Of a stretch of 64,000 bases of DNA, positions 1 through 57,508 are shown piece after piece; positions within the stretch are counted from its first letter, which is position 1, and each line of letters starts with the position of its first letter. A model generated the notes under the pieces. The model was not told the DNA's origin. It saw only the letters and a program-made list of their open reading frames with translations, and ran no database searches. The translations under genes were made by a program, and so were the position numbers. This stretch comes from Cubamyces lactineus (lineage: Eukaryota > Basidiomycota > Agaricomycetes > Polyporales > Polyporaceae): positions 434,001-498,000 of the forward strand of contig JACDTU010000018.1 in the NCBI GenBank assembly GCA_022376465.1, read 5' to 3'.

Positions 1-472
1 GCGACGCATCCGCATCATCGACGATAACACGCTCACCGTCTGCACCTTCCTCCGCTCGCGCTCCCTCGCCGATCCCTCCTGCCCCGTCGCGCGCCCCGCC
101 GTCAAGGAGGTGTACTATCCCAAGTGGTCGACCCCGCACAACTACGAGAAGTGCCGCGTACGTGGGCCGGACGGTCAGCCCGCCGGGGGATACGGCGGGC
201 TATTCTCCCTAACCTTCACGTCGACGGACGCGTCGAAGGCGTTCTTCGACACGCTGCCGTGCATGAAGGGCCCGAGCTTGGGTACGAACTTCACCCTCGC
301 ATGCCCGTACACCATCCTCGCGCACTACACGGAGCTGGATTGGGCGGCGAGCTGGGGCGTCGAGGAGGGTTTGGTCCGAGTCAGCGTCGGGATGGAGGAC
401 AGGGACACGTTGCTGAAGGGCTTCGAGAAGGCCCTACTAGCAGCCGAGGCGGTTGTCCAGCAACAGGCCTAG
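1..472 (+). CDS. Cys/Met-metabolism PLP enzyme, 3' part (cystathionine gamma-synthase type)
   Basis: The gene enters from the left edge. The frame is open from base 2 to a TAG at 470-472, so only about the last 156 residues are visible, without an intron. They carry GGYGGLFSLTF, then GPSLGTNFTLACPYT and VRVSVGMED, the usual ending of the small domain in the Cys/Met-metabolism PLP family (fold type I). The closest fit from memory is fungal cystathionine gamma-synthase, which joins an acylated homoserine and cysteine to cystathionine in methionine synthesis. The PLP-binding lysine is outside the window, so cystathionine beta-lyase or another family member cannot be excluded. The neighbouring gene converges on it, with 179 bp between the two stop codons. 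Confidence 0.8.
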   Translation, partial: RRIRIIDDNTLTVCTFLRSRSLADPSCPVARPAVKEVYYPKWSTPHNYEKCRVRGPDGQPAGGYGGLFSLTFTSTDASKAFFDTLPCMKGPSLGTNFTLACPYTILAHYTELDWAASWGVEEGLVRVSVGMEDRDTLLKGFEKALLAAEAVVQQQA

Positions 473-651: not shown

Positions 652-3464
652 TCACGTCACAAATTCCACGTCAGAGTCAGGACTTGAAGCAAGCAAACCA
701 TTTCCCTCAGGTGCGACATTGATGTCAACAACTCCACCATCGCCCTCATCATCCGGCTCGAAGTCGGCCGCGTGCAGTGCGACCTTCTCGTTGAAGGATG
801 CTGGCTCTCCTTGCACTGGCTCGCCGAGATCCAGCCCAAGCTTCTCCCCGATCGCGTCCTCCTCCTCGTCTTCGAGAGGCTCCTCGACGATAGCGCCCTG
901 TTCCCGGATGATTTCCCAGCTCTGCTCCGCGACAGCCAAGTTCTGTCCCTGGCTGATGGCTTTGACGATCTGGCCCTCATGATGCGCGTGAAGCGTGCGG
1001 CGGAGGGAGCGAGTGACGAATGTCGAGAGGATACGTAGCGGCCATTCTGGAGGAATCATTGAAATGATCTAGCAATGAATTATGAGTGAGCAGACATTAG
1101 CTTTTGAAGGGCGTAGTCTCGCTTACGTCGACGACATCCAGGTTCATAGCTTGAGAGTTGAGGAGCTGAGCGGTACGATCCGCTGTCGCTTCCCTGTAGG
1201 ATTCGCCGGTCGATTAGCACAGAGAGATTCGGGTTGGGGTATTAGACTTACCCGCCGCTCATGTAGACCTCCAGTAGAATCATGACGAGGTCTTTCTTGA
1301 CTTCATCATCGACAGTCTTCGTCCTCTTCATCGGCCCAGCGCTTGGCTTGATGGGTTTCCCTGGCGCAGCAAGAGGAATGACGAGTGCCGCCCACGGTTG
1401 CAGCCTTGCCCGCTCGCCAATGGCTTGTGCTGTCTTCGCAGGGACGACCTCACCACCGAGCGTGCAGTACGCCTCTGCCGACATCGAGTCGTTCATGTCA
1501 TGTACGAGGAGGGAGAGCGCCGATCGGTGGTTGCCAAGCTATCGCAACTTATCAAGACTTATGCAGTACCAGAAGCGTGAAGGACGAACCTTGCCCTCGA
1601 GGATGGCTAGCTCTAGCTTCAGGAGCTTGGCATGGGGTGACAGACGTGCGCGGATGGTCTCAGGGTCATACAAGGTCGATCCTTGGAGGAACAATACTGT
1701 TTTTAGCCGGACACGCTTGGGCTCAGAGTCCGGTGTTGTTGAGGAAAAGTAGGAAATGAATGGGGTATCAGAGCGGCCGGACGCATACGAGGAAGCTGTT
1801 ATTCGTGAGATCAGGCCGAAGTCGTGTACTAATGAAGGCTCACCCTTCGCTCGCCATAGCTTGGATGTCGACTCGTCGGCGAGGCAGGATAATAGCTGGT
1901 CCACGTAGGTAACCGCTAGTTGGGTGTGTAGCACCGGGTCCTATTGTGGTCTATTAGCATGATCCGCCACACACTAGATATCTGATACAACTGACAGTAC
2001 TTCGTCGGTGGATGACGAGATTTTCGAGAAGCTGTGCCCCCGCTTCAGGATTGGCTTCCTGGATCTCCTGCAGGAGAAGACGATCATCTTCCGCTTTTCG
2101 TTTCGACGACATTGTGGTCATCAACAGCTACTCGTCCCATTGAGCCATCACCCAGGTGCTTAAGAAAGGCAGTGGCAAACCTTCAATGCTCTCTCAGAGT
2201 CCCTCTTGACTAACCAGGGCATCCACTGTTTGATCAATGAGCGGTCTTTTCGGTCACTCAATAAGTCAAATATCCGGGAGAGCGGATCCTGTACGTCCGG
2301 ATCTACCCATTCTCCCCCAACGAGTCTGCAAATAACATCTGAGTTTCCTGTGTTCAGTGACGATGTTGTCTCAATACCTAGCCCATGTTTCGAGGAGTTT
2401 GGCGTCATCATTTCGCTGTTGGTATAGCTTGCACAGAGCATTGATGTGTCGCGACTTGACAAGCTCGGTTTCGAGCTCGGAAAGAGCGATTGCGTTAGGC
2501 TGGTCAATCAAGTTGTAGAGCTCAGGCAGCTTTCCGGTGTTCACATGGAGCTTCGCGAGTACTGTATCCACCACCTAGCATGCCGTTAATACGACCTCAG
2601 ATGATTCTATGACTGGGTACTGTTACCATTCGCACGGCTTGCGACTGCGGTGTCACTGTTTCCACTGCGAGCTTCCGCCGCCACTTTCGAAGGTATGACT
2701 CAAGCATATCCCTTGCAGCCATGTTCAGGGTGTTTCGCAACTCGACCGTAGGGGGCGCCTCGCGCGTGTTTGGCGCGAGGTGCGGCGAGTAATTCCTGAC
2801 TAGGTTTGCGACAACTAGTCAGTCCCGACAAGAGGCGACAGGCGGGACGGGCGGTGGGGGGAAACATAAGTCAATAGGGGGTGAATGGGTGGGGAGGCGA
2901 GAAAGAAAGAGTGCGCGTGCTCGCGCGCGGGAAGCATATGGCACAAACAGTATCTGAGCAAGGCGCGACTAAATAAAAACTCACTGATGTCGTCCACAGA
3001 GTCCTCCAAAGGCATATGCTCCGCTACACCAGCCATGACATCCACAGTCTCGTCTTCTGCGAAGAGCTCCCCGCGTAGCTCGGGATAGTAGCTAACGAGA
3101 ACTCGAGGATCTAGCTCGCCGTCGTACAAGCGGTTCCCTGCGTTTTCAAACAATGTCTCCTGAAAGCACTGAAATCCAAGTCTTTGGTTGACATAACGCA
3201 GTTCGTCAAGCTAACGTGACCGGTGTTAGCCATGCTTTCCGCCATCCACGAACAGCGTCTCACATCGTGTCTGTCTACATTCAACATAGACTGTAATCGT
3301 TTCCGTTGTTGTTCCGCAAGGTCCGTTACATCTTCGAGTCTGTGCGCCTCAAGCAAAGCGTCCGCTTGCGATATGAGGGTCGAGGGAAGCAGGGCTTGCA
3401 CGGCGTTGGAACCGAGTACCAGCACATTCGCCTTGGGGAAATTAGGGTATTGTAGGGTAGCCAT
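652..3464 (-). CDS. VPS3: Vps3/TGFBRAP1-type vacuolar sorting protein, C-terminal half
   Basis: Eleven exons close in frame to 720 residues: 3464-3264, 3210-2985, 2814-2627, 2574-2378, 2325-2181, 2127-1996, 1940-1844, 1795-1590, 1538-1252, 1193-1127, 1068-652. The product starts MATLQYPNFPK, then VLVLGSNAVQALLPSTLISQ, the segment that normally follows the CNH domain. It continues with the LYDGELDPRVLVSYYPELRG region, the helical repeats (NPEAGAQLLENL, LHTQLAVTYVDQLLSCLADE) and the Vps39-domain-2-like end PPEWPLRILSTFVTRSLRRTL, then an acidic tail. Family members are tethering subunits of CORVET (Vps3) or HOPS (Vps39) acting in endosome-vacuole fusion. No CNH domain lies upstream on this strand. 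The missing half is encoded divergently at 4027-5472. The ATG at 3464 is the first in frame and sits 3 bases after a CTAG that could be an old splice acceptor. The intron 2815-2984 is long (170 bp). Confidence 0.85.
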
Positions 3465-4026
3465 TACTAGCGCATCCGGGTGTTGTACAGGCTATAGAGC
3501 GTTCAGCAGAGAGCGCTGTGTTGCACAGCGTGGGGAGGGTGTGCAAGGGTTTGCACGCTCAAGTCGTGGTCGAGGACGAAATACGTATTTCGGGCGCCTG
3601 CCTTAATTAACGGCAATACACATAAGCGCCTATGCAAGTCTTACATACTCGCACAGGTTACTTACTTACACCCACTTCATTACATGCGCTTACCGTGTTC
3701 TACCGGACTACTACAACTGTGACTGCGCAGTCACCGCGGTTCCAAGTCGTTCGACTTGCCACCATCGTACTTCGCCGGAGTCGACGTGGAAAGCTACCCT
3801 ACTGTCTGAAGATTTCGAAACAATCTTGAAGCTGCGAGAGCATCGTCCTCGCACCCGTAATTGGTCAAGTCACACAGAAGTTGCCATTTAACGAGGACGC
3901 CCCAGTGTCCAACAGGTTCTTCGTGAGTGATTACTACCAGGATACTCTGGTCACACGTGTTCAAACCGACTATCGTTGAATAGGTGTTAGCGTTGTATAG
4001 GCGTTAGCCAGTTCTTTGTACGCAAC
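3465..4026. promoter_or_regulatory. intergenic region between the two divergent Vps3 halves
   Basis: These 562 bases separate the ATG of the minus-strand C-terminal half (3464) from the ATG of the plus-strand N-terminal half (4027). If both halves are expressed, their promoters must lie here or within transcribed flanks. I see no frame with family similarity and no clear TATA box. One breakpoint of the presumed inversion should lie in or near this interval. Confidence 0.4.
3868..3880 (+). repeat. 13-bp direct repeat, left copy (agtcacacagaag)
   Basis: The same 13 bases occur at 5418-5430, in the 3' end of the N-terminal Vps3 half, in the same orientation. The two copies lie close to both ends of the segment that carries that half. 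It may be chance or a trace of the rearrangement. Inverted rather than direct copies would be expected from a simple staggered-break inversion. Confidence 0.4.
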
Positions 4027-5472
4027 ATGACGTACGCACCTCGAAGGCCAATCGACGTACCTCCGTACCAATTGCAGCCGTTGCTGTCCGGTTTCACAGA
4101 TGCTCTCAGTCGTGAGCCTTGCCACCAAACCATAGTTGATATGCGTCTGACTTTGCTTATGCGCCAGGATCCGCGGGTCATCCTGTCAGCGTCCGATGCG
4201 CGCAAGCCATAGGTATGCTGAGTCTCCGCATTTTGCGAGTCAATCAGGCTGAACATCACTGTAGGCTCCGAGATTTATGTTGGTTGTTCGAATGGAGAGC
4301 TTCTTCGTTTTGCCCTGCAGGGGGGCGCTACAGATTCGGTATGTGCTGATGACGCCAGCAGCAAGCTTTGCTCACTCACCACCCTTAGCAAGAGTCTTAT
4401 ACCCTTTTGTCTCGACAATCGATACCCAACGAAAAGCCGATTGATGAGATCGTGCTAGCACCTAGTATTTCAAGGGCTTTAGTGCTCTCTGGTGCGACAA
4501 CTCGCGATTGCCTCGTGCGCGACTAACGAATGCTCTCAGATCACCAGATCCATTTCTACACTCTCCCTGCATTAGATGTGGTATCACACAATGTAATCAA
4601 ACCTATCAGGAACGTCGTGACATTCGCAGTCGATGAGCAACATCTCAGGAGACCACCACAATTGGCTAACGACATTCCGGTTCCTGTCGATCCGATCGAG
4701 TTTTGTGTAGTCAAGCGCAACGCAATCTCGCTGTATAGCCTACGTGAAAGGTTATTTTTCCAAAAGGTATGTACATGCTTGTGGAGAGGACGGCATATTT
4801 TCCAGTTCGACTCACATACTACGCAGGAGATACCCCTACCTACTGGAGGCGTTCTCGCGCGGCGCACTGGTCGATATCTGTGCATCGCCGATAAGGAAAA
4901 CTACAACGTGGTGGACCTCATACAGGCTTCTCTCGTTCCCTTGTTGCCAATCTCCCAAGCGTATGATTCGGACATTGTCGTAAAGCCATCTATCACGGTC
5001 ATCAGCGAGAACGAGTTCCTCATCTTGTCTTGGACCGGCGCCAGTACTATTGGCGTCTTTATCTCTGGTGAAGGCGATCCTGTGCGCGGAACACTGGAAT
5101 GGCCCAGCCATCCGGAGGCTGTTTGTGGGTTAATTGTTCGCATGAGTCCGCTTTGACAGCAAACTCACGCCATTGATAGCTCTTGACTATCCATACGTCA
5201 CAACTCTCCTCCCCAACAACACGATCGAAATCCACAGTATCGAGACGCAAACCATCGCCCAGGTTATACCAGCGCCACCTGAAGGGCCTGGTCCTCTCTC
5301 TGGTGACAGAAAGGCGCTCATAGCGTGCTTCAACGGATTCTTCATTCCCAGTGCGCAACGTACCGAGAAGCTGCGTCCCACACCCGTGCGACTTGTCAGG
5401 AGGGGAGGAGCGAAGGTAGTCACACAGAAGGGAAACGCTGATGATACTGTACCAGACCTTCCTGCCTTGTAG
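4027..5472 (+). CDS. VPS3: Vps3/TGFBRAP1-type vacuolar sorting protein, N-terminal CNH half
   Basis: Seven exons join in frame to 374 residues: 4027-4111, 4168-4212, 4265-4338, 4389-4491, 4540-4766, 4827-5124, 5180-5472. The product is a CNH (citron homology) beta-propeller: PPYQLQPLLSGFTDAL, GSEIYVGCSNGELLRFAL, SYTLLSRQSIPNEKPIDEIV, ISLYSLRERLFFQKEIPLP, FLILSWTGASTIGVFISG, then NNTIEIHSIETQTIAQVIPA and FFIPSAQRTEKLR. That is where basidiomycete Vps3/TGFBRAP1 proteins pass into the helical region. Here the frame instead ends after about 22 residues with no counterpart I recognise. The helical half lies on the opposite strand from 3464 leftwards, so the gene looks broken by an inversion. The 60-nt intron 4767-4826 is a multiple of three and free of stops. 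A bare CNH fragment could still act in trans with the other half. Confidence 0.85.
5418..5430 (+). repeat. 13-bp direct repeat, right copy (agtcacacagaag)
   Basis: Second copy of the 13-mer at 3868-3880. It begins two bases after an AAG|GTAGTC sequence (5413-5421) that could be an orphan splice donor inside the unique tail of the N-terminal Vps3 half. Confidence 0.4.
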
Positions 5473-6247: not shown

Positions 6248-8787
6248 ATGATAGCATCCCCGGGGGACTGCCCCGGCGCCCGCTGCCCACTCCTCCCACT
6301 AGAGGCAGCACGCCTCACGAGGACCGAGTGAGAATCGAAATCATCCCACACGGTAGCAGTGAGGTCCACGTCCACGTCTCTGGGAGGATTCCGGTCGTTC
6401 TAGGTTCCTCTTCGGGCCATACGGCTTCCTCCCAGCGGGCGTCTGGACCCAATGCAGCAGACACGCACATCGATAACGCGTCAGACGCGCAGGCCCCTCA
6501 GGCGGATGCCTCCGTGCAGGCTGCTCAAACTAACACTAATGTCCCAGCAGGCTCGGGGATTGAGAACGTCCCTCCTCAGACTGTCACCAACCCCCCAACG
6601 ATGGCGGGCCCTAGCTTTCTGCGTCCTTCCTGGCGGGGTCCGCGACCGATTCGTCAGCCATCGCCCGAATACCCACCGATGTATAATGTTGATGTTACCG
6701 AAACGATCCCACACTTCGACCCTCACCATCGCGTGGCTACTCCGGCCAGAGGCATTCTACGCCGAAGCGGAGGTACGCGTCAGTCCTCCTGTGTTGTTAC
6801 CCTCAGACGCCTGATGCGATGTCCTTGCAGCGGATCCCAGCCAATCGGGCAATCAGAATGCACAGTCCGGAGATGATGCTAGAGAGGGACAAGCGGGTCC
6901 ATCTTCGGGTGCGAGATGACTTCTCCGAGTTCATCGCAGTTGACGCCTGATGACGATGGTTGGTCTCTTTCGCAGGCGGAGCCCGACCGTCAAGCGGAAA
7001 CCGAGGACAGGCCCAAAACAACCAATCGCAATCACAATCTGCGCAGCATGCCGGCCAGCGACAACCAGCTACCCAGCCTCACTGGCAGCAGCACTGGCAA
7101 GGACAGGGCCAGCAACAAGTGCCCCATGCGGCGCCCTTCCATTCCGCCCAAGCACAAGTGTTCGCACATGGGCACCCCTTCCATATACCGGCGGGTTTGA
7201 CCTGTCAGGGCTGTTCCCAGCCACAGTATCACCACCCAAGTTGCCCAGTGTTCCGCAACTTGATGGCCCAACTTCAATGGGCTCAGGCAGCCCAGGCAGG
7301 CGCCCAGCAGCCGCGCAGGCCCCAATCAACAGACCGTCGAGATGGTGGCGCGGAGCCATCGGCCGAGACAAGACATCGGCGTACGTCTCGAAATCACTGT
7401 CGGTTCCGTCGACTCTGTTTTTTGAGATATTTCCACTCAGGGACGGCTTCTGGGGAGAGTGCACCTCGCCAGAGGGGAGATTCTGGGCGGTCGACTCGCC
7501 GTCGAGACGATGACGAGGATGAAGAGGAAGACAACGTATGTCTTCATCATGATCGTCTCACTCTCGCAATCTGCTGATGGTCGCTGTTAGCTGCTCCCTC
7601 GTCGATCTCGTTCTCCACTCTCGCCTCCCCCGGTCGTCCCACCACCTCCGCTTCGCTGGCGGGACCCAGCGAGGCTTGCACCTTTCGTTCCTCCGGGAGA
7701 TCCGCCACCGGACAGGCCAGTACTTCCAAGTCCCCCTCCATCGCGCGGCAACTCGCGCGAACGAGGAGCGAACCGTGCACCGCAGGCTGCCCGCCCAAAT
7801 TGGGGACCAAACACTCACCCGGCGATGTTCATTGCCCCCAATATGCAGGCCCAGATGTGGCCTGCATTCAACCACCAGGTCTTCACCGGGTTCGCGCCAC
7901 CCCAGCGCCCACCCATTGTGCCCCCGAACGCGCATGTACTCCCACCTCCAGGCTTCTGGAGTACGAGCCGCCCGCAGAGCCGGGCTTCACAAGGACGGCA
8001 TGGGGCGGCCCATGCTGCGACTCCTGCGCCTCAGGATTTCATTCCGTGGCTCGATACCGATGGTTTAGTACCCCCCCATTTCCTGAGTGAGGACGGCCGC
8101 ATAATCACGTCGTTCCCCGTCGGGACGACACCAGGAGGCCCCGGTTCATTCTTCCTCAGGCCTATAATGTTCTCGCCGTTCAGCGGGCCCCACTTGCATC
8201 CCTACGTTCTGCCCAACCCCGAGGCACACCACTGCCCGGTGCTCATCTGGGACGCGCGCCTCCCGCCCGAAATGATTAAGCGCGTGACGAGCCGGGAGCA
8301 GGTCGTGCGCCTCACGCCGGACAAGCTCAAAGAGTCGTTCACGTACCCGGAGGTGCGGGAGGCCTGGATCCGCATTGGGGTGCCCGGGGTGACCCCCACG
8401 CTACTCAACTACTGCCTGCCGGTGAACCTGAGGCAGTCCCGCGCGATCACTCTGCAGGACGCGCTGCAGGCCGTCTACGACTACCTGCAGAAGCCGGTCA
8501 CGCAGGAGCAGGCCGCGGAGTTCGCGCGCGAGGACGCCGAGTCCTGGGCGCAGGCCCAGGAGGCGTGCAGGCGGCGCTGCTCTGAGGCCCCGCACATCAC
8601 CATTCCTTCGGTTGAATGGCGCCAGGGCGTCAAGCGCGTTGACCTGCTCAAGGAGAACGTCCGGTTCCAGGCGATGGTCGCCCGTCATTACCATCACCCA
8701 GGCATGACAGACATGGTCTGGGTGATACACGCGTTCTTTGTGCCGGCGTATATGGTCGATCCGCGTCTGCGAAGGCCTCGCCACTAA
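6248..8787 (+). CDS. DUF6699-like protein with long disordered N-terminal region
   Basis: Six exons give about 746 residues: 6248-6327, 6387-6772, 6831-6908, 6976-7380, 7441-7535, 7591-8787. The 5' end is the weakest part: the ATG at 6248 needs a 59-nt first intron. Otherwise the first in-frame ATG is at 6601. The N-terminal two thirds is low complexity: a Q/A/H-rich stretch (PHWQQHWQGQGQQQ), an acidic-basic patch (RRRDDDEDEEEDN) and a proline-rich run (SPPPVVPPPPLRWRDP). The last 200 residues are ordered (CPVLIWDARLPPE, YPEVREAWIRIGVPGVT, ITLQDALQAVYDYL, FQAMVARHYHHPG) and resemble the DUF6699 domain, which is expanded in agaricomycetes and has no known function. Intron 7381-7440 is 60 nt without a stop, so retention would add 20 residues. 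Confidence 0.7.
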
Positions 8788-23066: not shown

Positions 23067-23080
23067 GGTTATGAGCCCTG
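23067..23080 (+). other. primer-binding site, complementary to initiator tRNA-Met anticodon region
   Basis: The sequence ggttatgagccctg directly follows the left LTR. It is the reverse complement of cagggctcataacc, the anticodon stem-loop of fungal initiator tRNA-Met as I remember it. Copia of Drosophila likewise primes from an internal half of initiator tRNA-Met cut in the anticodon loop, so this element probably does the same rather than using the tRNA 3' end. Confidence 0.8.
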
Positions 23081-23092
23081 GCCAGCTCCAGT

Positions 23093-26000
23093 ATGTCCGA
23101 CTTCCAGAAGATCACCCCTGACCCCTTCTCGCAACCCGAGGCAAGCTCGAGCGTCAAGATCCCCGCGCTGAACGAAGACGGCTCCAATTGGGTTCTATTC
23201 AAGGCTCAATTTCTCACAGCTGTCCAAGCGAAGGGACTTCGGCGCTACCTCGAGGGCCGGGAACGACTCCCAGTACCAACAACTGCGCCCGGGGTCGATT
23301 CTGATGCCGATGAGAAGTACGAGACTGCGATGGACAAATGGACTGGCAACCACGCCACCATCAAATCCCTCCTCCTCCAGACTGTCCCCGAGTCGCTGAA
23401 GCTCGAGATCGCCACCAAGATCCGTGCCAATGAAGCTTGGCAAGTTGTACTGGCACGCTATGATAACCAAGGCGACTTCGTGCAAGTCAATCTCCTTACG
23501 CAGATGCAACAGCTTCGATGCGAAGAGGGAGCCGATCCTCGCCCCGTTCTCGCTCAGCTCGCGCGTCTCCGTGCCGAATACGCAACCGCCGGGGGCATCC
23601 TCTCCGACAGTCAATATAAGGTCCTCATACTCGGTACGCTCCCCACCTCCTATCGCCCTGCCATCCGAGCCATTATGGCTTCCGCCCGCACCGCCGGAAC
23701 GACTATCACCCCGATCGCGCTCATCGACGCCATCACTGAAATCGCACGAGACGAGCACGCACTCGATGACAAGTCGTCCGGTGGCGCCTCCGCTCTCGCT
23801 GCGCGCGGCAACGTCAAGTGTTTTAACTGCAACCGCGAGGGTCATACGAAGGCCGAGTGCTGGAGCAAGGGCGGTGGGAAGGAGGGCCAGGGACCGAAGC
23901 GACGTCGGGGGAAAGGGAAGGGGAAGGGGAAGGAGAAAGAGAAAGAGAAAGGGACGGAGAAGACGGAGAATGGCTCGAAGACTGGCGGCGGGGAGAGTGC
24001 GAAGGTAGCGACGCCGAGTACTGTACAGGCAAGTGCAGCAATGACATCGCGCCTTGAAGACTACACATTTTGGGAAGACTCGGCATGCCTTGTCTCAACC
24101 GACTTCTCGAAGGTCTCTGCGCGCACACTGCCCCTCAGCCGTTACACACGACTCATCGACTCTGGCGCGTCTCGCCACTTCGATCCCTACCGTGACAACT
24201 TCGCAACGTTCCGCGAAATCACACCTATGCCTATCAAATCCGCGGACGGCAGGGTCTTCTATGCTATAGGCGAAGGGGACGTTCTCGTGTCCGTCAATCG
24301 CGACGATGCACAGCGCACGGACACGTTCACCCTCCGCAACGTCCTCTACGCACCCGCGATGCCTGTCTCCCTCATCTCAGTCAGCCAACTCGCCTCCTCT
24401 GGGTTTCAAGTACGTTTCGCTAGGAACGGCTGCCAACTCACCACTCCCGCCGGCAATAACCTACCCCCCATCGCCGAGCGGAGCGGCCTATACCCTCTGC
24501 TAGGTACTCGACCGGTACTGAACGCGCAGGCGCAAGAAATTGCTGCCGCGACATTGTCGGACCTCGAGTTTCACCGGCGGATGGGACATGCCTACCCTCC
24601 GACCTTGCGCAAGATGATCGCCGATGGCGTCATCACGGGCATCGACCTCGACGGCGCAGAAGTGCGGTTTTGCGACATATGTCAGCAAGCCAAGCAAACG
24701 CGCGTGCCCTTCCCGAAGGAGCGCTCGAGCCCGCGAAGCACGCGCTATGGTCAACGCGTCCATTCGGACGTATGGGGCAAGGCTCAGGTCCAAACGTGGG
24801 ATGGTAAGCAGTACTTCATCACGTTCCTAGACGACTACTCGGACGAAGTGTTCGTCTCCCTCATGCGCAACAAGAGTGACGCTTTTGCAAAGTACCGAGC
24901 GTACGAAGCCTGGGTCAAGGCCCATCGAGGTGTGACGACCATTGGGGAACTCCAGAGCGACCGAGGCGGTGAATACACCGGGACCGAGTTCTCTACTCAC
25001 CTCGAGTCTCAGGGAACTGTGCGCCGCCTTACGGTCCACGACTCACCGCAGCAAAACGGGAAAGCAGAGCGACTGAATCGCACGCTAACCGAACATGCGC
25101 GAGCCCTTCTTTTCGATGCCCAACTCCCGAAATTCCTCTGGGGTGAGGCCATCTTACACTCCGCCTGGCTACGCAACCGTACGACGTCGAAGAACACCCC
25201 TGGCTCGACTCCGCATGAGTTAGCGACCGGCGGGAAACCTGACTTATCGAAGCTGCCGCGCTTCGGTGTGAAGGTGTGGGTTCTGCAGGAGAACGCCGGC
25301 AAGCTCGACCCGAAATCGAAGCCCGCGCGCTGGGTCGGCTTCGACTTCAGCAGCAAAGGGCACCGCATCTACTGGCCCGAACGCCGAACTGTCTCTGTCG
25401 AGCGGAATGTGCAGTTCGAGCCAGCCGATGGTATCGAGGTCAGCGTTCGCACGCAGGTCGAGGGGGAGAAGAGCTCGGATGACGCCCTGAGCGCGCCCGC
25501 TAATCCCTCTCAAGAATCAAAACCGCCACTATCGTCGCAACCCTCTCCATCGTCCAAACCCCTCTCCGAAGACATTGGCGCAGCGCAACCGCCTTCGCAT
25601 TCAGAACCTTCGCCTTCGGACACACCCAAGGCAGCGCCAACCGACGAGCACGTCAAAGCCGAACCAAGCGCACCCAAGCCCGAAGAGCAGCAAGCACGTT
25701 CGAAGCGAAGCAAGCCTCAAGCCCGATGGGCGCGCGAACTCGCCGAGCTACAAGCATCCTCAGGTCAAGAGCCGGCTGGTGAACGCAGTGCTCGACGGAG
25801 CCTCAGACCTGCTCCAAGCGAAACAGCGCGCACGGCAGCGCCAGACTATGGAGACGCGGACTTCGAGGGGGAGAATGAGAGCAACGACGAAGTCGACTAC
25901 AGCGACGTGCACGCGGCGTTACCGTCAGGCGCACCACTCTTCGCATTCGCCGCCATGGGCTCAGAAGACGAGCCAACCTATCGCGAAGCGATGACGGGAC

Positions 26001-27451
26001 CTGAACGCGATCAATGGAGAACGGCCATGGAGGAGGAGCTAGAGCGCATCAAGAAGATGGAGACGTACGAGCTTGTGGAACCACCTGAGAACGCGAACGT
26101 CGTCGGAGCCGTCTGGGCACTGCGCAAGAAACGCGACCACAACAATCGGGTCGTTAAATACAAGGCACGACTCTGCGCCCAAGGCTTCTCGCAAGTCTAC
26201 GGTGTCGACTACACTCAGACCTCTTCGCCAACAGCTCGCCTCTCATCCTTCAGACTCGTGCTCGCTCTCGCCGCAGCCAACGACTGGGAGATCCATCAGA
26301 TCGACTTCAAGAACGCTTACCTCAATGGCGACCTCGACGAGACGATCTACATGCGACAGCCTCCGGGCTTCGAGATCCCTGGTAGGACCCATCTCGTTTG
26401 GCGCCTTCTCAAGGCACTGTACGGTCTCAAGCAAGCCGGATTGCAGTGGTACCGCAAGGTTCGAGCCCTCATGAATGATCTCGGCCTCTCTCGTAGCGAC
26501 TTCGACCCTGGCGTATTCTACCTTAATGACAAAGGTGCTGTCATTATTATCGTCATTCATGTTGACGATTGCACCCTCGTAACGAGCAGCACACGCCTTA
26601 TGGTCGCCCTCAAAGAGAAGCTCGCAAGCCGGTACGAGATCGTCGATCTAGGCGAAATCCGCTGGCTATTAGGCTTTGAAATATACCGTAACCGTGCACT
26701 ACGCCAGATCTCCCTTATCCAACACCCACACGCCAATCTCTTCGCATTCAATCTTGATGACGAGGAGCGTAGCGACATGCGGCGTAAGCCATACGCACAA
26801 CTCATCGGGTCCCTCATGTACGCGGCCATCGGTACACGGCCGGACATCGCGTTCGCCGTCTCGACACTCTCGCGATTCATGTCCGACCCTGCTCGCATTC
26901 ACTGGGAAGCCGCCAAGCGTGTCTTGCGCTATCTGAAGGGAACCCGCGACCACTCACTCACGTTAGGCTCCACCTCGGAAGGCCTTGTCGGATACACGGA
27001 CGCCGATTGGGCTTCACAAGCTCATCGTCATTCGATCTCTGGCTTTGTCTTCCTGCTCAACGGAGGCGCGATTAGTTGGCGCTCCTTCAAGCAGCCAATT
27101 ATTGCTCTCTCTTCGACTGAAGCGGAATACATTGCCGCTTCCGACGCAATGCGCGAGGCCGTCTGGCTACGCGCGCTTCTTGCTGAACTCACCTTCCCTC
27201 CGACTAAGCCGACGCTCATGCTCTGTGACAACCAAAGCGCCCTTCGCCTTGTTGACAATGCCGACGTCTACCATGCTCGCACGAAACACATCGACATTCG
27301 TTATCACCACATCCGCGAGCTGGTGGACAACAAGATCATTATATTCCGGTATTGCCCTACCACGGAGATGGTCGCCGACATCTTAACCAAGCCACTTCCT
27401 CGTCGGCGGATCGAGGCATTGTCGACCTCTCTCGGACTGCGTCAAGCTTGA
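23093..27451 (+). CDS. copia gag-pol polyprotein (1,452 aa), intact
   Basis: A single uninterrupted frame. Residues 1-230 are the Gag region (UBN2/retrotran-gag type). A CCHC zinc knuckle spans C243, C246, H251, C256 (CFNCNREGHTKAEC). A Lys/Glu-rich linker follows, then the aspartic protease with LIDSGAS (D356). The integrase has an HHCC zinc site (H494, H499, C527, C530) and a catalytic triad D559, D623, E659, with the last two 35 residues apart as expected. A Pro/Ser-rich spacer of about 160 residues precedes reverse transcriptase, with LALAAANDWEIHQIDFKNAY, LYGLKQAGLQWY and HVDD (D1158-D1159). RNase H has LSSTEAEYIAA near residue 1343. All key catalytic residues are present, so the element may be active. 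Gag and Pol share one frame, with no frameshift or stop between them. Confidence 0.97.
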   Translation: MSDFQKITPDPFSQPEASSSVKIPALNEDGSNWVLFKAQFLTAVQAKGLRRYLEGRERLPVPTTAPGVDSDADEKYETAMDKWTGNHATIKSLLLQTVPESLKLEIATKIRANEAWQVVLARYDNQGDFVQVNLLTQMQQLRCEEGADPRPVLAQLARLRAEYATAGGILSDSQYKVLILGTLPTSYRPAIRAIMASARTAGTTITPIALIDAITEIARDEHALDDKSSGGASALAARGNVKCFNCNREGHTKAECWSKGGGKEGQGPKRRRGKGKGKGKEKEKEKGTEKTENGSKTGGGESAKVATPSTVQASAAMTSRLEDYTFWEDSACLVSTDFSKVSARTLPLSRYTRLIDSGASRHFDPYRDNFATFREITPMPIKSADGRVFYAIGEGDVLVSVNRDDAQRTDTFTLRNVLYAPAMPVSLISVSQLASSGFQVRFARNGCQLTTPAGNNLPPIAERSGLYPLLGTRPVLNAQAQEIAAATLSDLEFHRRMGHAYPPTLRKMIADGVITGIDLDGAEVRFCDICQQAKQTRVPFPKERSSPRSTRYGQRVHSDVWGKAQVQTWDGKQYFITFLDDYSDEVFVSLMRNKSDAFAKYRAYEAWVKAHRGVTTIGELQSDRGGEYTGTEFSTHLESQGTVRRLTVHDSPQQNGKAERLNRTLTEHARALLFDAQLPKFLWGEAILHSAWLRNRTTSKNTPGSTPHELATGGKPDLSKLPRFGVKVWVLQENAGKLDPKSKPARWVGFDFSSKGHRIYWPERRTVSVERNVQFEPADGIEVSVRTQVEGEKSSDDALSAPANPSQESKPPLSSQPSPSSKPLSEDIGAAQPPSHSEPSPSDTPKAAPTDEHVKAEPSAPKPEEQQARSKRSKPQARWARELAELQASSGQEPAGERSARRSLRPAPSETARTAAPDYGDADFEGENESNDEVDYSDVHAALPSGAPLFAFAAMGSEDEPTYREAMTGPERDQWRTAMEEELERIKKMETYELVEPPENANVVGAVWALRKKRDHNNRVVKYKARLCAQGFSQVYGVDYTQTSSPTARLSSFRLVLALAAANDWEIHQIDFKNAYLNGDLDETIYMRQPPGFEIPGRTHLVWRLLKALYGLKQAGLQWYRKVRALMNDLGLSRSDFDPGVFYLNDKGAVIIIVIHVDDCTLVTSSTRLMVALKEKLASRYEIVDLGEIRWLLGFEIYRNRALRQISLIQHPHANLFAFNLDDEERSDMRRKPYAQLIGSLMYAAIGTRPDIAFAVSTLSRFMSDPARIHWEAAKRVLRYLKGTRDHSLTLGSTSEGLVGYTDADWASQAHRHSISGFVFLLNGGAISWRSFKQPIIALSSTEAEYIAASDAMREAVWLRALLAELTFPPTKPTLMLCDNQSALRLVDNADVYHARTKHIDIRYHHIRELVDNKIIIFRYCPTTEMVADILTKPLPRRRIEALSTSLGLRQA

Positions 27452-49697: not shown

Positions 49698-52971
<3,274 letters not shown>

Positions 52972-56540: not shown

Positions 56541-57508
56541 CTACACCAGCCGTTTTGGTTCTTTTACCTTCTGCTCTACCTTCTCTACCACTTCCGTGAC
56601 TTTAGCCTCCACCGCTTCTGCCACTTGTGCAGCCGACTCCTGTGAGGTCGCTGCGATCTCTCGCGTCTTCGTCTCGACGCTCTTGAGCGTGCGCTCGCGC
56701 CAACCGAGTGTCTCGCGGAGTTTCAGCCCGGTCGTCTCCTCAACCTTGCCCACCAAGTTGGCGACACCGCTCGAGAACGTCTCCCGGCCATTTTGGGTCG
56801 CATCCTTCACGCGCTCCCACGTCATGGCGCTGTGCTGCTTCGCAATCTCGTGCTTCTCCGCGAACGTGGGGAAGTGTTTGTCCTCGAGCTCGCCGAGGTA
56901 TGTGGAGACGTTGTGTGTCGTCTTGGGAAGGAAGTGGTTCAAGGAGAGTAAGAGTAGCGCAGGCGGAAGCGTGAGCCGCCAGAGGATGCGGTTGCGGGCG
57001 AGAACGGAACCGGTAAGCGTGGCGACGCCGACATAGAGAATGCCGGGGGTAAGCGGTTCTTCTGGGGCGATGAGAGACTTGACTCTGCCTTTCAAAGTGA
57101 CATGGATAAGCGAAGAGATAAGGAGGACATGGACAACATACGCACTTTCAACCGCCTGCTCGACCCCAATCCACCGAGAAATCACGCTCTGCACCCTAGA
57201 GTGTGCGTCAAGGTACGTGGCGGTGACAGCTCGTCGCGCGACACCAATCTGCTTTTCAAGTTCGGAAGGCGTCTCCAACAGGACCACTTCTGGGTCCGGA
57301 GCGGGGTAAATGGGGAGCTGGCACGAAAGAGAGGTCAACAGAGCTCGGACGTTTGTAGGAGGATGGTAACACACCTTGTCGCGGCTCTCGTGCACGCCGA
57401 CAGCTACGGCCGCAGCGACGGCAGCACGTCTGCTCTATAGCAGCAAATGTCAAGCAAGGACGGTGCAAGAAGACTGGGAGGGACACAAACCACGAGGACT
57501 CTGAGCAT
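56541..57508 (-). CDS. MICOS subunit Mic26/Mic27 (apolipoprotein O family)
   Basis: Three exons (57508-57491, 57434-57375, 57317-56541) give 284 residues. The first 26 residues (MLRVLV, then SRRAAVAAAVAVGVHESRDK) look like a mitochondrial targeting or membrane segment. LPIYPAPDPEVVLLETPSELEKQIG is the conserved start of the apolipoprotein O domain. Next come LIAPEEPLTPGILYVGVATLTGSVLARNR and LTLPPALLLLSLNHFLPKTT, two membrane stretches with small-residue motifs. The end is helical and charged. The protein sits in the inner mitochondrial membrane at crista junctions and helps to assemble Mic10. The first exon is only 18 nt. It is chosen because it is the only upstream ATG that keeps the phase. 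Confidence 0.88.

Follow-up and report, generated by a model that had tools for sequence, protein, structure and literature searches.

The gene for the CORVET tethering subunit Vps3 (TGFBRAP1 in humans) is present as two separate genes in a 64,000-nucleotide stretch of the Cubamyces lactineus genome (contig JACDTU010000018.1, positions 434,001 to 498,000; this whole stretch is called the window here). One encodes the CNH-type beta-propeller without its last two strands (the N-half) and the other encodes those two strands followed by the alpha-solenoid (the C-half). Standalone versions of both halves, separated at a common fission point, are retained jointly across several fungal orders and fall in one clade, and the fission is far older than the Cubamyces genome. 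The explanation that we favor, and consider probable, is an ancient fission of Vps3 after which the two chains would rebuild one propeller by sharing a blade.

The exons of the N-half gene lie at 4027-4111, 4168-4212, 4265-4338, 4389-4491, 4540-4766, 4827-5124 and 5180-5472, separated by six introns. Those of the C-half gene run from 3464 down to 652 with ten introns, including a 48-base intron (1843-1796) placed by comparison with a 720-residue Cubamyces relative. All 16 introns are GT-AG, in agreement with the original prediction, made from the sequence alone, of a Vps3/TGFBRAP1 gene in two divergent halves with intact frames and splice sites; its figures of 720 residues for the minus-strand gene and about 1,094 residues in sum also hold (374 + 720 = 1,094). 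The start codons are head to head, 562 bp apart, with the genes facing away from each other on opposite strands, and no single open gene carries both domains. The N-half is 93-94% identical to its Cubamyces orthologues and the C-half 92% identical to its own. Pfam finds CNH (PF00780, E = 2.7e-15) in the Cubamyces sp. N-half P0122, to which the N-half at the locus is 93% identical, and Vps39_1 (PF10366, E = 5.3e-7) in the Cubamyces sp. C-half P0001; Vps39_1 also scored at the locus itself in the assembly.

A protein search with the C-half, which scored the 7,992 candidates sharing most words, gave 239 matches. Among the best 120 of these, 114 are standalone C-halves, and the other six are all one-piece Hymenochaetales proteins of 1,083-1,154 residues that include CNH. 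The corresponding N-half search gave 293 matches, and the N-halves among the best 120 are likewise standalone, mostly 335-380 residues long and in many cases from the same species as the C-halves. Matching names across the two best-120 lists indicates that both halves are kept in at least 74 species; median lengths in the 74 name-matched species are 703.5 (C-half), 373 (N-half) and 1,079 residues (sum), the last being near the lengths of 11 fused proteins (996-1,173 residues). Standalone versions of both halves, with the same cut point, occur in Polyporales, Agaricales, Russulales, Gloeophyllales, Corticiales, Atheliales and Boletales, and one-piece proteins in Hymenochaetales, Gomphales, Auriculariales, Cantharellales and one mucoromycete. 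Species are placed in the orders to which we take them to belong, with five names checked by taxonomy look-up. A helix motif pattern is matched in 105 of the 114 standalone C-halves (nine lack a match), and 102 of these 105 begin 18-26 residues before the motif, the other three lying outside that range. Since the orthologues are conserved across orders, a chance origin of the paired halves is excluded. A screen for fused proteins returned 14, namely five Hymenochaetales (including the query), Ramaria, two Auriculariales, Tulasnella, Benjaminiella and four Lactarius; it is no census, as the fused Phellinidium protein P0079, known from the C-half search, was not among its matches. This non-exhaustive screen returned none from yeasts, Tremellomycetes or rusts, which leaves the outgroup picture thin, and none from Thelephorales, Trechisporales, Sebacinales or Phallales, by our order assignments, was seen among the matches listed.

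A tree on both regions together comprised 72 rows (60 split, 11 fused and one Lactarius), with Mycena and Trametes limited to four species each (reducing 74 species to 59), Lactarius deliciosus left out, and L. pseudohatsudake and L. vividus unaligned. In this tree, built with a quick method and having some long outgroup branches, the split genes and the nested Lactarius form one clade (Shimodaira-Hasegawa-like approximate likelihood ratio test, SH-aLRT, 98) adjoining the fused Hymenochaetales. The fused Auriculariales, Cantharellales, Gomphales and mucoromycete fall outside this grouping. Two state changes are needed if Lactarius is scored as fused, and otherwise one. The split thus represents an ancient gene fission with a single origin and a common fission point. 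Cases in which the gene for a complex subunit has undergone fission are already known, and split Vps3 adds a new one: no report of it was found in the open-licence literature, judged mainly from titles and abstracts. In a comparative study whose Vps3/Vps39 analysis took in Phanerochaete chrysosporium and Schizophyllum commune, the available part of the main text contains zero words starting with 'split' or 'fission' (PMC3785458).

The halves are independent genes, and their linkage has been lost in part of the clade while both were kept. Linkage was inferred from identically sized contigs, so that a shared long contig does not prove adjacency nor different short contigs separation; on this basis the halves share a contig in 32 of the 74 name-matched species, lie on different contigs in 36, and come from separate assemblies in six (three Polyporales and three Agaricales), which are undecided. 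A shared contig is found in 23/27 Polyporales, 2/2 Gloeophyllales, 1/1 Corticiales, 1/1 Amylocorticiales, 1/3 Russulales, 0/2 Atheliales and 4/38 Agaricales. In 31 of the 38 Agaricales compared, the contigs differ and both halves are still kept; those of Mycena sanguinolenta lie on contigs of 5.9 and 2.1 Mb. Orientation beyond the window is read from locus tags and contig sizes. The locus tags of the two halves adjoin in Trametes cinnabarina (g46/g47) and Rhodofomes roseus (g4966/g4965), and model numbers, which need not follow the map, are consecutive in Daedalea quercina and Daedaleopsis nitida. Searching viral contigs with the Cubamyces C-half returned 12 pattern matches, and a scan of genome contigs returned 58, with no relatives in either set.

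Four Lactarius records (P0241, P0243, P0246 and P0248) join an N-part and a C-part on one strand, and all four span both halves at least in part (BLAST). The joints disagree among the four models: the first C-half strand is absent at the joint in three, and in P0248 a standalone-like start, MASTFPRSHVLILG, follows about 27 odd residues. In L. indigo (P0241), which groups within Russulales in the tree, CNH is above the Pfam cut-off and Vps39_1 below it. It is likelier that gene calling merged tandem genes than that a true re-fusion took place; given the conflict at the joint, we do not accept the latter as shown. This bears on how the fission arose. The in-place inversion originally proposed can explain the head-to-head layout, if the N-half was turned around together with its promoter, but the fission long predates this genome; because the halves lie on different contigs in most Agaricales compared and the Lactarius models are collinear, inversion was possibly a later step or not the cause. 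Under an alternative origin, compatible with the explanation that we favor, fission was collinear, through a stop and a new promoter in the linker, with the head-to-head arrangement arising later in polypores and Lactarius keeping the collinear order or having rejoined the genes. The single-strand Lactarius models with their joints are in line with this, as are their N-part tails, which resemble those of standalone Russulales N-halves; Lactarius may, however, simply be rearranged. We regard collinear fission as a serious candidate, just short of an even chance, and if Lactarius does hold merged tandem genes, a collinear fission with a subsequent inversion in polypores is an equally good account.

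The cut falls in a variable loop within the CNH propeller, between two strands near its end, so that the final two strands of the propeller, still conserved, are encoded with the helical half. The original prediction had read the plus-strand gene as a complete CNH beta-propeller with the boundary right after the domain; the propeller of that gene is in fact incomplete and the boundary slightly off, as the segments matching the last two strands are at the start of the minus-strand gene and the cut lies inside the last part of the propeller. In the predicted model of a fused relative, a strand at 347-351 is followed by a middling-confidence linker, strands at 378-385 and 389-394, and then helices, and alignments to complete propellers such as RACK1 continue through the cut. 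In the predicted model of the N-half alone (P0122), strands end at 306, and the remainder and the N-terminal strand are unformed; in this model the last blade does not take shape from the CNH half on its own. When the whole fused model was searched with Foldseek, the intraflagellar transport complex IFT-A and other propeller-solenoid chains ranked high with low template modelling (TM) scores, which we do not take as kinship.

Both halves appear to be under constraint. Mean identity is 61.5% for N-halves and 57.3% for C-halves over 1,770 split-species pairs, and 46.2% and 46.5% for the respective regions over 55 fused pairs. When pairs of equal C identity are compared, the N identity of split pairs exceeds that of fused ones, and the N-half is therefore not relaxed; judged from sequence, there is no sign of decay in either half. 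The first C-half strands have an entropy of 0.92 against a whole C-half mean of 1.33, with 142 of 702 windows of the alignment as conserved or more, and these strands are the main sequence evidence for contact.

Because both pieces are retained, with propeller strands kept on the solenoid half, we suggest that the halves still pair. The VPS3 (TGFBRAP1) gene would have broken once, in the ancestor of the sampled Polyporales, Agaricales, Russulales and related orders, in the stretch coding for the variable loop, and both pieces would have become separate genes kept as orthologues in living species. Together the two proteins would still make up a single subunit of CORVET, in which the solenoid half docks on the complex via its C-terminus, like yeast Vps3, and inserts its first two strands into the last blade of the CNH half so as to hold that half on; in Cubamyces the head-to-head pair may be driven by one common promoter. 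Yeast Vps3 is anchored on the CORVET core by a C-terminal helix, with its propeller flexible and at the far end, according to the available sections of PMC11187117. In the accessible part of another study (PMC3688683), yeast Vps3 was cut at residue 426: CORVET assembles with the C-part by itself but not with the N-part by itself, neither of the separate parts was able to bind Vps21 in vitro, and sorting was strongly impaired only when the N-domains of Vps3 and Vps8 were both lost. By these truncation results, as far as that source shows, a break between the two parts can be withstood from the outset, and this would account for the fixation of the fission. A more specific proposal is that a large part of Agaricomycetes, perhaps most, runs a seven-polypeptide CORVET in which Vps3 is an obligate pair, both chains, each from its own gene, contributing strands to the last blade and the hairpin of the solenoid chain lying between CNH-chain strands; we put this forward tentatively, as possible but not quite probable.

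Several points weigh against strand sharing. The contact, CORVET membership and the common promoter are what we infer rather than observe. The two structure predictions differ in query species and in alignments (63 and 54 rows), and the linker of the fused model is not strongly disordered (predicted local distance difference test, pLDDT, 56-75 in 10-residue block means). The final strand region of the N-half is about average in conservation (entropy 1.15 against 1.25; 185 of 353 windows of the alignment as conserved or more). The correlation between N and C identities is weaker in split (r = 0.84) than in fused pairs (r = 0.98), which speaks against tight co-evolution, and such a correlation can come from common ancestry alone. 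The four joined Lactarius records are an exception unless they are merged gene calls. By analogy with yeast, where CORVET sorting persists after loss of the Vps3 N-part provided that the Vps8 N-part is retained, contact would not be strictly required (PMC3688683, available part).

A rival reading is that the halves have parted functionally, with the solenoid half alone serving CORVET and the CNH half having gained a separate role, for example as a free Rab or lipid binder. In its favor, yeast CORVET both assembles and sorts without the Vps3 N-part in the available account (PMC3688683), the weaker N/C correlation fits, and the different contigs in 31/38 Agaricales make linkage dispensable. Against such a parting, the C-half has retained two propeller strands that would serve no purpose in the absence of the N-half and whose conservation exceeds its average; the N-half stays conserved, and its lone model leaves the last blade unformed. 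We consider functional parting unlikely. Of the two options originally offered for the intact frames, two polypeptides still working together is the better, with both kept in at least 74 species and the split genes in one clade. The other, a very recent event, whether an in-place inversion in the Cubamyces genome, for which the layout is as expected from inverting the N-half with its promoter, or a mis-assembly, is hardly credible and is refuted as the origin of the split by the same split in many species, standalone orthologues across orders in one clade, and the linkage data, including neighboring locus tags in other polypores (Trametes cinnabarina, Rhodofomes).

Searches of the whole assembly (36.3 Mb in 43 contigs) found no second copy of either half: all nine C-half query matches are at the locus, as are six of the seven N-half matches, the remaining one being weak (41% identity) and on contig C43, where the CNH family search scores too. 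These single-copy results rule out decaying copies beside a second intact full-length VPS3, which had been raised as a possible objection. Contig C1 carries a further Vps39_1 locus, a candidate for Vps39, and the family of Vps8, the other CORVET-specific subunit, is present. By sequence score alone, the fused relative P0087 is closer to yeast Vps3 (E = 4.5e-7) than to the Chaetomium Vps39 chain 7zty_A (E = 0.0089).

Yeast Vps3 (PDB 8qx8 chain E, the best sequence match to P0087 among solved chains) and human TGFBRAP1 likewise have a CNH-type propeller followed by an alpha-solenoid, but yeast Vps3 is one polypeptide of 1,011 residues, whereas Cubamyces has two genes and two polypeptides. The Chaetomium thermophilum Vps39 N-terminal domain (PDB 7zty) differs in belonging to a HOPS subunit, in one chain, and in its weaker match to P0087. 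The laboratory-split yeast Vps3 resembles the natural case in its general division into N-terminal propeller and C-terminal solenoid and in a C-part that alone assembles CORVET, but it is artificial and its parts were, in the sections available, tested singly (PMC3688683); the natural cut precedes the last two propeller strands. The split SDHB and Mic60 of Euglenozoa are likewise lineage-wide splits of conserved complex subunit genes, but these belong to mitochondrial complexes, not a tether, and the accessible text describes no common propeller blade (PMC10952624).

In a large share of the mushroom-forming fungi, a tethering subunit that is core to eukaryotes comes in two pieces, a split hidden by database names such as 'hypothetical protein', 'CNH domain' and 'Vacuolar sorting protein 39/TGF...'. 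The split is a natural counterpart of the yeast Vps3 truncation experiment, suggests that a propeller can be cut within its last blade and kept, and allows direct tests of what the Vps3 propeller does in species whose pieces are already separate genes. The fission may also serve as a rare genomic change by which to place Hymenochaetales relative to the other orders. If Vps3 is indeed an obligate pair of chains with a blade in common, production, regulation or exchange of the CNH module could be uncoupled from the core.

Features of the split Vps3 locus, in window coordinates
Feature	Position	Strand	Details
N-half of Vps3, CNH propeller without last two strands	4027..5472	+	374 aa, 7 exons; Pfam and structure model on Cubamyces orthologue P0122
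C-half of Vps3, last two propeller strands and alpha-solenoid with Vps39_1	652..3464	-	720 aa, 11 exons; Pfam on Cubamyces orthologue P0001
Codons 12-30 of C-half, ANVLVLGSNAVQALLPSTL, matching the fused relative's last two propeller strands; conserved above C-half average	3375..3431	-	Codons counted from start 3464, exon 1
Intergenic region between both start codons; presumed divergent promoter common to both	3465..4026	.	562 bp, 50.7% GC; promoter role inferred
N-half codons 351-374 and stop, variable C-terminal tail after last strand; linker remnant or newly gained	5398..5472	+	Sequence comparison

Among the neighboring genes, the 3' end of a gene for a pyridoxal phosphate (PLP) enzyme of Cys/Met metabolism lies at window positions 1-472 (+), convergent with the C-half gene and stopping 180 bp from its stop codon, and a frame with a DUF6699 domain (7591-8784, +) lies downstream of the N-half. 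Farther along, an uninterrupted 1,458-residue frame (23075-27448, +) with copia-type gag, integrase and reverse transcriptase domains probably represents a long terminal repeat (LTR) retrotransposon with an open frame. Two further neighbors are ordinary: a frame at 51176-52393 (+) has Sec23/24 helical, beta-sandwich and gelsolin domains and is presumably a subunit of the coat protein complex II (COPII), and an ApoO-family protein frame lies at 56544-57434 (-).

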